A stretch of DNA of 28,565 nt from a virus. Positions within the stretch are counted from its first letter, which is position 1, and the number at the start of each line of letters is the position of its first letter. The position numbers and the translations under genes were made by a program. The DNA lies in IMG/VR virus record IMGVR_UViG_3300044533_001575, positions 1-28,565 of that record. One strand, given 5' to 3'. Shown here one piece after another: positions 9,878 to 28,080 of this stretch. Below the pieces are notes generated by a model that saw only the letters and a list, made by a program, of their open reading frames with translations, did no database searches and was not told the origin of the DNA.

Positions 9878-9886
9878 TGATATAAT
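9878..9886 (+). promoter_or_regulatory. Extended -10 promoter TGATATAAT
   Basis: TATAAT (9881-9886) is preceded by TG one base away, an extended -10 element. No good -35 box is seen. The same nine bases occur at 25370-25378, also shortly before a structured leader and a regulator-like gene. Confidence 0.6.
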
Positions 9887-9899
9887 TAATAATAACAAA

Positions 9900-9930
9900 A
9901 CCCCTCGCGGTGCGCTTAACACCCAGGGGT
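9900..9930 (+). ncRNA. Structured leader, copy A
   Basis: ACCCCT (9900-9905) pairs with AGGGGT (9925-9930). Inside, an unpaired CGCG (9906-9909) precedes GTG (9910-9912), which pairs with CAC (9920-9922) across loop CGCTTAA, and an unpaired CC (9923-9924) closes the other side. The ribosome binding site AAGGA (9944-9948) lies in the loop of a second hairpin, ACTATT/AATAGT (9938-9954). Alternatively the loop CTTAA (9915-9919) can pair with TTAAG (9942-9946) and mask it. There is no U-tract, so it is not an ordinary terminator. The geometry matches the element at 25392-25421, with compensatory changes. Confidence 0.6.
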
Positions 9931-9957: not shown

Positions 9958-10500
9958 ATGGATAATATTACCAGAGCCGAACGTTCTACAGTTAAATTTT
10001 GTGAGGGTGTCGAAGTCGATGGGTATTTATTGCCGTCCGGTGAGTTTAGGGTTGGCAAAATTTCGACTGCGCTGGCACTGGGATACGGAAAAGATTGGGT
10101 AACTCGGACTATAAACGGGGTCGCATCGGGCAAAGGTAAAGACGCTGAAACCCTTACCCAGTGGGGATTTAGTGGGGTCGCATCCCCTGTAGAAATCACT
10201 GGATCGGCTAGAGGGACTACAATCTCGGAAACTATCAGCTTAAAAGATTTTCGGCAATTGATTAGATTAGCTGCAAAGAGAGGTAAACCACAAGCTGAAG
10301 CGTTACTGGATGCCCTGTTAGACGTGGGGATTGAGGATTGGTTTAGATTGGCTTTCGGTCAAGAGCAACTTACCCTAGAGGAAAAGCGCAATAGATTTTA
10401 TAAAGCATACGCGGCGACTATTGACTGGTTACTTGAGGATAGGCAGGAATTGAGATTGATTGAGGATCAAGAATTATTTTTAGCTGGCAACTGGAATTAA
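9958..10500 (+). CDS. Putative phage regulatory/antirepressor-like protein
   Basis: This is a 180-residue protein starting at the ATG 9 bases after AAGGA. Its first part reads as a small domain around LLPSGEFRVGKISTALALGY and TRTINGVASG, like the N-terminal 'option' part of phage antirepressors that reuse host-type DNA-binding folds. The second part (LKDFRQLIRLAAKRGKPQAE, then LLDALLDVGIEDWFRLAFG) resembles the C-terminal helical region seen in cyanobacterial phage-associated regulators. I see no enzyme motif, signal peptide or membrane segment. It follows the tape measure gene after a 127-bp gap and has its own promoter and structured leader, so it is probably expressed separately from the tail genes. 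The family assignment is by general resemblance only; hypothetical protein is the safe alternative. Confidence 0.5.
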   Translation: MDNITRAERSTVKFCEGVEVDGYLLPSGEFRVGKISTALALGYGKDWVTRTINGVASGKGKDAETLTQWGFSGVASPVEITGSARGTTISETISLKDFRQLIRLAAKRGKPQAEALLDALLDVGIEDWFRLAFGQEQLTLEEKRNRFYKAYAATIDWLLEDRQELRLIEDQELFLAGNWN

Positions 10501-16463: not shown

Positions 16464-17297
16464 CTATTCCCCAATAATCATCTGGCGATCGCCTTTCTGA
16501 TTTGCCCACAATTCTCGAACCTCATCAACCAACTCCGCAGGGATATAGTCGGTTTGAACTGGACGCATTGCTTTAGAAATTAGATGATCTTTACCGCAAG
16601 ATTCTAACCATTTTTGAAAATCCTTTCCAGTTTTGAATTTCAATTCTTTACCGAGTTGAGCCAATGATTTCCCACGAAATACAGCTAACTGTTTTCCGTC
16701 TTCATTCATAACAACTGATTCAAACTGGGTTTCAGTTTCTCTCACTACTGCGTCAGGACGACCTTGAATGAGTGCCAAAGTTCCCACGCCATGAAGTGAA
16801 ACAATAGCGGAGCCAGACTCTAAAACAAGCCTTTGATCTCTCATGCTACTAGCTTGGGCTTCAGCAATTCGGACTTGTAACCGGAGAAATTCTAGCTCAT
16901 CATTTTGTTGGGGGATGACGGTTTCAGCTTCACGGGTTTTGATGACAAAATAGGCTTGAGCTTGTGCAATTTCCGGTTTTCGGGGGTCGCCGTTCATAGC
17001 CGTGAGATAAGCCCCAAATCGAGATAATTTGTAATCTTCTTTTGGGCGACCGCCACTTTTTAGGATTGACACTGAAAAGTGCTTACCGACTTCGTTTGAG
17101 CCTTGCTGTGCTTCACAAGAAACCATTGCTCGTTCAATGGCTACCTTAAATTCATTCCATCGGGGATATCCCAATAAACTCATCAACTCCCGTGCCAACC
17201 AGTATTCGCGCCCTTCACAGTCAATGCGCTTAATTGAGTCAAAAGGGGATTTGGATTGACTGTGATCTTGATTGCCAGATAATGCTATATTAGACAT
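16464..17297 (-). CDS. DinD/BRO-like antirepressor
   Basis: The protein has 277 residues from the ATG at 17297, which has GGA five bases upstream; the open frame continues upstream to 17390 but that part overlaps the leader hairpin. The N-terminal domain (about 24-125) matches the DinD/BRO-N pattern: REYWLARELMSLLGYPRWNE, then HFSVS, then EDYKLSRFGAYLTAMNGDPR, then IAQAQAYFVIKTREAE. In E. coli DinD is DNA-damage inducible; BRO-type domains are common in phage antirepressors. A helical linker follows (135-160), then a C-terminal domain with helix-turn-helix-like segments (SLAQLGKELKFKTGKDFQKW, DYIPAELVDEVRELWAN), typical of phage antirepressor C-terminal modules. It has its own promoter and leader hairpin. 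Probable role: interference with a repressor, possibly damage-linked. Confidence 0.85.
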   Translation of the reverse strand: MSNIALSGNQDHSQSKSPFDSIKRIDCEGREYWLARELMSLLGYPRWNEFKVAIERAMVSCEAQQGSNEVGKHFSVSILKSGGRPKEDYKLSRFGAYLTAMNGDPRKPEIAQAQAYFVIKTREAETVIPQQNDELEFLRLQVRIAEAQASSMRDQRLVLESGSAIVSLHGVGTLALIQGRPDAVVRETETQFESVVMNEDGKQLAVFRGKSLAQLGKELKFKTGKDFQKWLESCGKDHLISKAMRPVQTDYIPAELVDEVRELWANQKGDRQMIIGE

Positions 17298-17327
17298 AGA
17301 TTTCCAATAAATTATTACAACGTTTTT

Positions 17328-17379
17328 GAGAAAAGCCGGAGAAGGTAGAAAACCTCTGGCTTTTCTCTTTTCTATTATA
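17328..17379 (-). promoter_or_regulatory. Promoter and leader hairpin of the DinD-like gene
   Basis: On the minus strand TATAAT (17379-17374) is followed by GAGAAAAGCC (17367-17358), which pairs perfectly over 10 bp with GGCTTTTCTC (17337-17328). Inside, AGAGG and CCTTCT form a smaller bulged stem with a 7-base loop, and CC sits just before the closing arm. The general plan (outer stem, inner stem, CC) recalls the leaders of the other regulator genes, though the sequence differs. Confidence 0.55.
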
Positions 17380-17408
17380 CACCAAAACACTTTAAGCTAT
17401 TTATTCCA

Positions 17409-25369: not shown

Positions 25370-25378
25370 TGATATAAT
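25370..25378 (+). promoter_or_regulatory. Extended -10 promoter TGATATAAT
   Basis: This is identical over nine bases to the element at 9878-9886. It lies 13 bases before the structured leader of the AntA/AntB gene. No -35 box is evident. Confidence 0.6.
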
Positions 25379-25391
25379 ATTAACAGTAAAT

Positions 25392-25421
25392 GCCCTTCGC
25401 GATGCTGAAACATCCAAGGGC
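25392..25421 (+). ncRNA. Structured leader, copy B
   Basis: GCCCTT (25392-25397) pairs with AAGGGC (25416-25421). Unpaired CGCG (25398-25401), then ATG (25402-25404) pairing with CAT (25411-25413) across loop CTGAAA, and unpaired CC (25414-25415) complete it. Compared with copy A, three base pairs changed on both sides while CGCG and CC stayed the same, which is strong internal evidence for a conserved RNA fold. Downstream, CCTA-N6-AGG forms a small hairpin over the ribosome binding site of the gene starting at 25447. Confidence 0.6.
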
Positions 25422-25446
25422 TGTAAACCTAACTAACAGGATCACA

Positions 25447-26223
25447 ATGATTGATTTTAGCAAAGAACTAGCTCTAAGTTTACTCGGTTCCGGTAAAGAA
25501 TACCCCGTTGATTTTGAAGACGCTTGGCAATGGTTAGGATATTCAAGTAAACAGGCTGCCAAAAAGAAGCTAACCCGCAACTTTGAACAAGGGGAAGACT
25601 ATTTATCCGAATGGATGAAAACCCCTGATGGCGGTCGTCCTAGCGAATCCATCTATCTCACCGTCGATTGCTTTAAGGCGTTAGGCATGATGTCAGGGAC
25701 GGAACAAGGGAAGGCAACTCGACAATATTTCCTCCGGTGCGAAAAGGAATTAAAATATTCTAAGTCCACTGGTGGGATAAACCTGTTGGACAAACCCTCA
25801 CCTCAGTTGATTAGTGATGCGATTATGGCAGTCTTCCGACCTACCAATGTTGACCCAACACTTGTCTCAGGGATTATTGCCAACAATATCGCTAAAACTT
25901 ATCCGGCGTTGGCTCCTGCGATGGAAGAAGCCAAAAAACATCTAACCGTCGAAGTTGAGGGAAAACTTCTCACGCCCACCGAACTCGGATTAATTTTAGA
26001 ACAGCGCACTGGACAAAAACACTCGGCGCAACGGGTCAACAAACTATTAGCTGAGAATGGATTGCAAACCCCAAACCCTCACGGGAAAGATCCGGCATGG
26101 CTACCGACGCCAAAAGGTTCTGAATTTTCTAAGTTGTTACTCGCCGCACAGAAGGGCGTTAAGGATGCGACCCGTCAACATTTGCAGTGGCTTGAATCTG
26201 TTGTTGATGTTTTGGCAGTGTAG
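25447..26223 (+). CDS. AntA/AntB-type antirepressor
   Basis: The protein has 258 residues from ATG 25447, which follows AGGA by 6 bases; the open frame begins at 25390 but that stretch is the structured leader. Residues about 18-100 match the AntA/AntB antirepressor domain: KEYPVDFEDAWQWLGYSSKQ, then AAKKKLTRNFEQGEDYL, then GGRPSESIYLTVDCFKALGM, then GTEQGKATRQYFLRCE. The C-terminal half (LLTPTELGLILEQRTGQKHS, VNKLLAENGLQTPNP, WLPTPKGSEFSKL) is a winged-helix-like module seen in phage antirepressors and KilA-related proteins. Such proteins antagonise the phage repressor and favour lytic growth. It has its own extended -10 promoter and a two-hairpin leader, and ends 110 bases before a terminator hairpin. 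Confidence 0.9.
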   Translation: MIDFSKELALSLLGSGKEYPVDFEDAWQWLGYSSKQAAKKKLTRNFEQGEDYLSEWMKTPDGGRPSESIYLTVDCFKALGMMSGTEQGKATRQYFLRCEKELKYSKSTGGINLLDKPSPQLISDAIMAVFRPTNVDPTLVSGIIANNIAKTYPALAPAMEEAKKHLTVEVEGKLLTPTELGLILEQRTGQKHSAQRVNKLLAENGLQTPNPHGKDPAWLPTPKGSEFSKLLLAAQKGVKDATRQHLQWLESVVDVLAV

Positions 26224-26918: not shown

Positions 26919-27506
26919 TTAGCCAGAGAATGTGGCAACAACATTTAGCTTTGCGGAATAAGAAATAACCATCTGTTTAAAATCTTGAGAGCATTTTCCA
27001 AAAAGGTGTATTCTGGGCTGTCTATCTGGGAATTCAAGCTGATAAACCAAAACCTGTCCTATTGCGCTTTTCCATGCCTGAACATCTTTGACTTCAATGA
27101 TTTCCGTATCCGTCAAAACATCAATCCGCCCGGTCTTGGTTACAACCTCAACATCTCCATTAAGCATTTTAGCAAGGTTATTTTGGTGGAATTTCTCAAA
27201 ACTATCACCTTTTCTATTTAACGCAGACACTTCTATCCATGCAGCCAACTTTTCGGCAATCTTGGGATGTCCCCAAGATCCTTGTAATCGGCAGTCACCA
27301 CCCTTTACGACCTCGATAAACTTGGAAACGACATTCCCCGTATCGGCTGCCATGCTTGAGATGTAGGCTTTTGTAGACTTGAGTGCCAGAAAATGCCCTA
27401 GTAGTTTTCCGTTGGCTTTACACATCTGAGTCAGGTTAACCCAACCATCAGATTCTCTTTTGGAGATAGCGAAATTATTGTAGCTCGATGAGATAAGATC
27501 ATCCAT
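26919..27506 (-). CDS. KilA-N / PD-(D/E)XK nuclease-like fusion protein
   Basis: This 195-residue protein has a KilA-N domain at about 10-92: DGWVNLTQMCKANGKLLGHF, then EVVKGGDCRLQGSWGHPKIA, then EKLAAWIE. KilA-N is a DNA-binding module of phages and large DNA viruses. The C-terminal part (about 115-190) reads GDVEVVTKTGRIDVLTDTEI, IEVKDVQAWKSAIGQVLVYQ, then RIHLFGKC, with Glu120, Asp129, Glu138-x-Lys140 and Gln151 in the order of a PD-(D/E)XK nuclease core. An intact D...ExK suggests activity. Its promoter (TATAAT at 27577-27572) and leader are on the same strand. Probable role: site-directed DNA cleavage or interference with host or rival phage DNA; a purely regulatory role is possible. Confidence 0.8.
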   Translation of the reverse strand: MDDLISSSYNNFAISKRESDGWVNLTQMCKANGKLLGHFLALKSTKAYISSMAADTGNVVSKFIEVVKGGDCRLQGSWGHPKIAEKLAAWIEVSALNRKGDSFEKFHQNNLAKMLNGDVEVVTKTGRIDVLTDTEIIEVKDVQAWKSAIGQVLVYQLEFPDRQPRIHLFGKCSQDFKQMVISYSAKLNVVATFSG

Positions 27507-27577
27507 TAGTGAACCTCGGTACTAGGTGAACTCACATCCCCGAATGCGGAAACATTGCGGGGACACTTATTATTATA
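27507..27577 (-). promoter_or_regulatory. Promoter and structured leader, copy C
   Basis: TATAAT (27577-27572) is followed by UCCCCG (27563-27558) pairing with CGGGGA (27542-27537). An inner AAUG/CAUU stem (27556-27553 with 27546-27543) has loop UUUCCG. Nearer the gene, CCTA-N6-AGG places the ribosome binding site AGG in a small hairpin. The plan matches copies A and B, but the CGCG internal loop is not conserved. Confidence 0.5.
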
Positions 27578-27582
27578 ACAAT

Positions 27583-28014
27583 TTAATCAGTCCCAAACTT
27601 TTCCCTGAGTGCCAACATAGCTTTTTTCTTCTTATGTCTGAGATATGATTCGGCATCGGTCAGGTTCCGACCTGGATAGATTCTCGGCCTCCCTACGGGC
27701 TTGGGGTCTGAGGTCGTGATTTTCTCATGGATTCTCGGTCGCCCCTCTGGTTTGGGATTTGAAATTTGGGACGCTCCGCAGGGTGTACAGCGCCACTTTT
27801 GTCTCCCGTCCGAATGAACCCCGTTTTTTTTCATCTTGTGTCCGCACTTTGGACATGGCGGGTTTTTCTTGGCTTCATTGGATTTTCGATTCCGCAACCA
27901 ACAGGGATTGCAGAAATACTTTTGTTTTCCGGTTGGCGTTATCCCAGACTTCCACATCTTCCCACCGCAAGTTAAGCAGCGCGGGTTATATTTTTCCGTG
28001 TTATCTTTGTCCAT
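27583..28014 (-). CDS. Double zinc-ribbon, double AT-hook DNA-binding protein
   Basis: This 143-residue basic protein has two zinc ribbons of the C-x2-C ... C-x2-C type: Cys13/16/35/38 and Cys54/57/76/79. The two are related (CLTCGGKM-KSGITPTGKQKY and CPKCGHKM-KNGVHSDGRQKW), pointing to internal duplication. Two AT-hook-like motifs follow in similar repeats, PEGRPRIHEK (89-98) and PVGRPRIYPG (106-115). The C terminus is a lysine-rich helix. Such ribbons occur at the N termini of transposases and in phage regulators; no transposase catalytic domain is present and the length is self-contained. A role as a DNA-binding regulator or anti-restriction factor is an inference. It has a leader related to the other regulator genes. 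Confidence 0.75.
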   Translation of the reverse strand: MDKDNTEKYNPRCLTCGGKMWKSGITPTGKQKYFCNPCWLRNRKSNEAKKNPPCPKCGHKMKKNGVHSDGRQKWRCTPCGASQISNPKPEGRPRIHEKITTSDPKPVGRPRIYPGRNLTDAESYLRHKKKKAMLALREKFGTD

Positions 28015-28072
28015 TAGTAGCCTGTTCTGTAGGTTTACTCAAGTCCCCAGGTGTGACAAAACATCGTGGGGA
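28015..28072 (-). promoter_or_regulatory. Structured leader, copy D
   Basis: On the minus strand UCCCC (28072-28068) pairs with GGGGA (28048-28044); an inner UGU/ACA stem with loop UUUGUC sits between an ACGA and a CCU internal loop. Closer to the ATG, CCTA-N6-AGG again covers the ribosome binding site. There is no good TATAAT just upstream, so this leader is probably in a message that begins at the 28314 gene. Confidence 0.45.
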
Positions 28073-28080
28073 TAATTTTT

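Follow-up and report, generated by a model that had tools for sequence, protein, structure and literature searches.

The window analysed here is the whole 28,565-nt stretch (~28.6 kb) of the IMG/VR viral record IMGVR_UViG_3300044533_001575. Its gene content includes tail tape-measure, terminase-like and methylase genes. For four further genes, here called A, B, C and D, the closest isolate relatives lie in a single genome, that of the Planktothrix phage PaV-LD, and, judged from its sequence, the window is a cyanophage fragment akin to this phage. Each of the four genes (Bro-N-fold, AntA, KilA-N and Lar-like, respectively) is preceded by a copy of the same hairpin, P1, which lies at the predicted mRNA 5' end and 25-29 nt ahead of the start codon (Table 1).

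Table 1. Promoters, hairpins and genes of the four P1 leaders in the window. Scores are those of covariance model R1; SD, Shine-Dalgarno sequence.
Feature	Position	Strand	Evidence
Extended -10 TGATATAAT, leader A	9878..9886	+	Sequence
P1 of leader A, two bulged C's	9900..9930	+	R1, 41.8 bits; fold
P2 of leader A, SD (AAGGA) within loop	9938..9954	+	Fold; group stem test
Gene A, phrog_32599, predicted Bro-N-like fold	9958..10500	+	PHROGs; AlphaFold model; structure search
Extended -10 TGATATAAT, leader B	25370..25378	+	Sequence
P1 of leader B, two bulged C's	25392..25421	+	R1, 44.4 bits
P2 of leader B (weak), CCU pairs with AGG of SD, 7-nt loop	25428..25440	+	Folding-energy and stem tests
Gene B, AntA-type antirepressor	25447..26223	+	Pfam AntA, E 1.7e-4 (below curated cut-off); PHROGs Ant families
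-10 TATAAT, leader C	27572..27577	-	Sequence
P1 of leader C, one bulged C	27536..27565	-	R1, 34.4 bits
P2 of leader C, ACCU/AGGU, 7-nt loop, SD in 3' arm	27513..27527	-	Fold; stem test
Gene C, KilA-N	26919..27506	-	Pfam KilA-N, E 4.6e-16
P1 of leader D, one bulged C, no TATAAT	28043..28074	-	R1, 25.0 bits
P2 of leader D (weak), CCU/AGG, 7-nt loop	28021..28033	-	Stem test
Gene D, Lar-like zinc-ribbon protein	27583..28014	-	phrog_6422, E 1.3e-37

The original prediction described two of these leaders, A and B, as sharing a fold behind an identical extended -10, and both hairpins and both promoter elements lie where it placed them. The distance from P1 to the ATG is 27 nt in leader A (ATG at 9958) and 25 nt in leader B (ATG at 25447). 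Copies C and D, which it had also named, are genuine members that carry one bulged C instead of two. A TATAAT box is absent from leader D in the window and in L057 and present in L030; the promoter of this leader may have been lost or may be a different one. Neither Pfam nor a PDB fold search (at E < 0.001) gave a match for gene A. Its AlphaFold model (pLDDT 75.8) matches Bro-N/antirepressor models in a viral library (six at E < 0.001, probability 1.0). Its family, phrog_32599, is annotated as having unknown function, and a Bro-N-like fold is predicted for it from the model. Weak relatives of this family were detected in 4 of 386 cyanobacterial genomes.

P1 is best described as a helix of 11 bp that is interrupted by one or two single bulged C's, all of them confined to its 5' strand. 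From 5' to 3' it consists of an outer stem, an optional C, a G:C or A:U pair, a further C, a 4-bp stem and a loop of 4-8 nt. The fold proposed for A and B holds, except that the CGCG, described as unpaired, contributes its last G to a pair with the first C of the opposing CC. The three compensatory differences reported between the two leaders (A-U/G-C, C-G/U-A and G-C/A-U) are present, and covariation extends to the whole helix in larger alignments. Among 26 hand-picked distinct sequences (alignment A2), both members of each of the 11 pairs vary and still pair, and compensatory changes occur at every pair among 34 distinct model matches (alignment A3).

The unpaired positions behave differently from the helix. 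The two bulge columns hold C in 39/39 and 37/39 distinct sequences and are less variable than nearly all P1 helix columns; the bulged C that separates pairs 8:26 and 10:25 on the 5' strand is present in 37 of the 39 and in all four window copies. At the columns that close the loop, 37 of 39 sequences have C·A (n=23), U·G (n=11) or U-A (n=3). C·A and U·G wobble pairs are isosteric, so the loop appears to be closed by a non-Watson-Crick pair that is conserved, a sign of selection at the RNA level. Paired cells make up 92.8% of A2 (26 sequences), against 26-57% when the partner strand is slid, and 90.7% of A3, no slid control exceeding 57%, and the C·A/U·G exchange was matched by none of 5000 label shuffles; many of the leaders derive from contigs that are close relatives, so that these cell counts and shuffles overstate the number of independent events and their significance. 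The argument for P1 rests on the same pattern being found before unrelated genes.

P1 is also an inverted repeat between the -10 and the start codon of regulator genes, as expected of a DNA operator, that is, an imperfect palindrome just after the promoter bound by a dimeric repressor. We find this scarcely credible considering the covariation, the one-sided bulges and the C·A/U·G exchange: the sequence of the arms drifts with complementarity alone being kept, and the orientation of the element is fixed.

With filters off, covariance model R1 finds exactly four copies in the window, and the best non-overlapping match on either strand reaches 11.4 bits. The antisense strands of the P1 copies score at most 16 bits. 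In PaV-LD, R1 gave five matches, all in leaders (ORF068, ORF099/100, ORF028, ORF091 and ORF105), and most of the related viral contigs carry one to six copies. Pattern scans of IMG/VR retrieved additional contigs with P1 before more distant genes. In total, the distinct leaders observed numbered over 40. A hold-out model, R2, was trained on A- and B-type leaders alone. It recovered C-, E- and F-type leaders in other contigs, located before PaV-LD ORF028 and before PD-(D/E)XK, HNH and KilA-N genes; every other match scored at most 14.8 bits. R2 misses leaders C and D of the window, which join the family through intermediates such as L042, L101, L090 and L182. Chance similarity is ruled out by the R1 score gap (25.0 bits or more against 11.4), the compensatory changes at every pair over the 34 sequences and the recovery of leaders by R2.

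In most leaders, 3-14 nt separate a TATAAT-like box from the start of P1, and this box is often accompanied by an extended -10. Where the gene is intact, P1 lies 25-35 nt upstream of the start codon, or ~41 nt in the initiator family. It is always in the sense orientation relative to its gene and is never reversed. Across the family, P1 lies ~25-40 nt upstream of a start codon on the same strand, the exceptions being broken or missing genes. Truncated or missing genes were found behind P1 in L024:3396, L149, L089, L018, L086, L198, L200, L204 and L220. In L081, L082, L157 and L158, two P1 copies lie 230 nt apart, and no ORF follows the upstream one.

Further matches upstream of KilA-N, Bro-N and AntA genes were found in dozens of viral contigs by covariance-model and pattern searches. 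Family searches identified as cargo AntA, KilA-N, Bro-N, phrog_32599, Lar-like zinc ribbon, HNH, PD-(D/E)XK and PAPS reductase. GIY-YIG genes and the gene of a predicted replication initiator, both named from their sequences and not from family searches, also follow P1. With such a mixture of families, the term 'regulator-like', which the original prediction applied to the downstream genes and which suits A (Bro-N/antirepressor fold) and B (AntA), is true of most P1 cargo and not of all.

Near-identical leaders before different genes, and leaders that outlive broken genes, would suit a recombination patch, in which common promoter-leader DNA serves cassette exchange between phages and any RNA role is secondary. 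Homology-driven exchange keeps sequence, not pairing with changed sequence, and we give this explanation almost no weight. The observations establish how P1 is folded, that it is conserved, where and in which orientation it lies, and that it recurs before unrelated genes. It is near certain that the P1 leader is a real RNA element, and it constitutes a new RNA family. The initial observation is thus confirmed, and its extent is larger than was first seen.

No Rfam family accounts for the leader, in agreement with what had been predicted. Rfam 15 gave no match in the window at the curated gathering threshold, and leader B had none at E ≤ 5 with relaxed filters. No tRNA or tmRNA was found. An intrinsic terminator was ruled out, as P1 has no U-run on its 3' side. 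A literature search among open-licence papers retrieved no description of the P1 leader.

Within the limits of the searches, no convincing P1 was found in cyanobacterial genomes. R1 returned one weak coding-region match from 291 cyanobacterial genomes (25 candidates per genome scored). Of the exact-pattern searches of 386 cyanobacterial genomes, one gave a single match, which lay in GC-rich DNA and lacked any leader context, and the other gave no match. Considering the number of candidates scored per genome and the narrowness of the patterns, the absence of P1 from host genomes is likely, not proven. Among phages, P1 was not found in Mic1, kac68v161, CL131 and A-1(L), in a run with PaV-LD as positive control, nor in Ma-LMM01, PA-SR01, 2AV2, A-4L and N1, in a run without one. 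Homologues of genes A and B outside PaV-LD-like viruses, including host and plasmid genes, lacked P1 at the loci checked. From PaV-LD, and not contig by contig, we infer cyanobacterial hosts for the viral contigs.

Between P1 and the start codon, the leaders contain a short linker (GUAA or GAGUNA) followed by P2, a short hairpin that can accommodate the SD either in the loop or in the 3' arm and often has a 7-nt loop. P2 stems that include the SD vary by gene family with complementarity kept (ACCU/AGGU, UGUCU/AGACA, CAACU/AGUUG, AUUCU/AGAAU and UCAAU/AUUGA). Added together, the P2 stem lengths come to 91, compared with 71.2 in shuffles, with 11 of 2000 shuffles reaching 91. The folding energy of P2 is not significant, 59 of 300 shuffled sets being at least as low. 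P2 is thus a likely but weak feature.

Other leaders have hairpins of their own. The antirepressor leaders L111 (CL131 gp002) and L037 consist of a 5' hairpin, unrelated in sequence to P1, followed by an SD hairpin (ACCCG-CAGGAA-CGGGT or TCACT-ATAAGGA-AGTGA). The CL131 and L037 leaders share only the layout with those described here, so a two-hairpin arrangement may be common, with P1 as one solution. The Bro-N gene at 16464-17390 of the window and PaV-LD ORF095L have another common 5' hairpin, AGAAAAGCC...GGCTTTTCT, which is terminator-like and lies directly after TATAAT (window 17303-17390, minus strand; PaV-LD 70058, minus strand). In the ORF095L leader, an SD hairpin (AACCC-AAAGGA-GGGTT) is found 3' of AGAAAAGCC...GGCTTTTCT. 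This hairpin may be an attenuator, or it may represent another family of leaders.

The fixed bulges in a drifting helix, the 5' position, the SD hairpin and the unrelated single genes argue for protein recognition and for control of translation or mRNA life. Our main reading, to which we give a probability of roughly 55%, is that P1 is a 5'-terminal cis-acting RNA that is recognized by a phage or host protein and sets the translation or stability of single-gene cassettes. The transcript would start just upstream of P1, from a phage promoter (TATAAT, in many cases with an extended -10), leaving the hairpin at the predicted mRNA 5' end or within ~10 nt of it. The stem would be free to drift, with the bulged C or C's and the C·A/U·G loop-closing pair being fixed. 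A phage-encoded or host protein would read the bulged-C helix and, once on P1, would set the opening of the adjoining SD hairpin or the lifetime of the mRNA. All P1 carriers, namely antirepressors, KilA-N/Bro-N regulators and nucleases, would then be controlled jointly after transcription. The weakness of P2 and the leaders before broken or absent genes count against a protein-read element. The interpretation first offered for A and B, a sensing element or the target of an RNA-binding protein, is supported, with either role being putative.

Alternatively, P1 is a plain 5'-terminal stabilizer without a specific partner, shielding the message from host RNase E or 5'-end-dependent decay. A 5'-terminal hairpin could suffice to stabilize an mRNA without any partner; P1 starts within ~10 nt of the expected transcription start, and unrelated 5' hairpins occupy the same place in other cyanophage antirepressor leaders (L037 and CL131). 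A stabilizer needs neither fixed bulged C's nor a C·A/U·G pair, both of which are kept while the stem pairs drift, and we consider this explanation rather unlikely. The location of P1 directly 3' of phage promoters, in several copies per genome, would also fit a transcription element that acts on RNA polymerase from the nascent RNA, through put- or nut-like antitermination or pausing. Such an element is distinctly improbable for leaders that precede single genes with the start codon ~30 nt away, that show no recognizable boxA-like partner in the linker and that have no U-run 3' of P1. A small ligand-binding riboswitch would explain the conserved unpaired bases and the SD hairpin in the leader. 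We judge it very unlikely: a single 31-nt hairpin in which only two to four unpaired bases are fixed would make a small aptamer, and the downstream genes have no common pathway.

The translational operator of T4 gene 43 is a hairpin ~40 nt upstream of the AUG that is bound by gp43 (PMC3014915). Hairpins also cover the ribosome-binding sites (RBS) of the phage homing endonucleases I-TevI, segB and mobE, and the seg43 hairpin lies just upstream of its RBS (PMC2988022). The gene 43 operator resembles P1 in being a phage leader hairpin a few dozen nucleotides from the start codon, near the ribosome-binding site. However, it is autogenous, serves one gene and has conserved loop bases, whereas P1 precedes many unrelated genes and has bulged C's. 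The homing-endonuclease hairpins similarly belong to leaders of HNH/GIY-YIG single-gene cassettes, with the SD in or beside the hairpin, as may hold for P2, but they are gene-specific, whereas P1 is one family across gene types. In the I-TevI type, a late promoter bypasses the hairpin, while P1 is part of every transcript from its upstream promoter. No such promoter inside the hairpin was found for P1, TATAAT-like boxes being located 5' of it in most leaders. The gene 43 operator and the T4-type homing-endonuclease hairpins are the nearest known cases; they are single-gene systems, and none is shared across gene types.

The manA, wcaG and PhotoRC-II RNAs are structured leaders of marine cyanophages present in Rfam (PMC2864571). 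Like P1, they are structured cyanophage 5' leaders found by comparison; unlike them, P1 has no Rfam match and differs in hosts and downstream genes. Operators of the MS2/PP7 coat-protein type are short helices with a fixed bulged A and a conserved loop, and are read by protein. P1 is likewise a short helix with a fixed bulge, but this bulge is a C and the loop is variable.

KilA-N, Bro-N and AntA rank with the commonest accessory genes that phages and large DNA viruses carry and, to our knowledge, little is known about how their expression is restrained. A strongly covarying RNA common to these messages offers a concrete, testable handle on their control. P1 would also give genome annotation a further RNA family, since the majority of copies lie unannotated before 'hypothetical' genes, including the five in the PaV-LD reference genome. 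PaV-LD-like phages are abundant yet poorly expressed in Planktothrix-type bloom-forming cyanobacteria (PMC10343443). One factor would probably control all P1 carriers. More tentatively, with rather less than even confidence, we suggest a phage-wide post-transcriptional regulon in which one RNA-binding factor would act on the same bulged-C hairpin at the mRNA 5' end of every accessory switch gene (KilA-N, Bro-N, AntA and homing-type nucleases). If this is true, phages of bloom-forming cyanobacteria would connect new single-gene cassettes to a control circuit already in place by leader acquisition.
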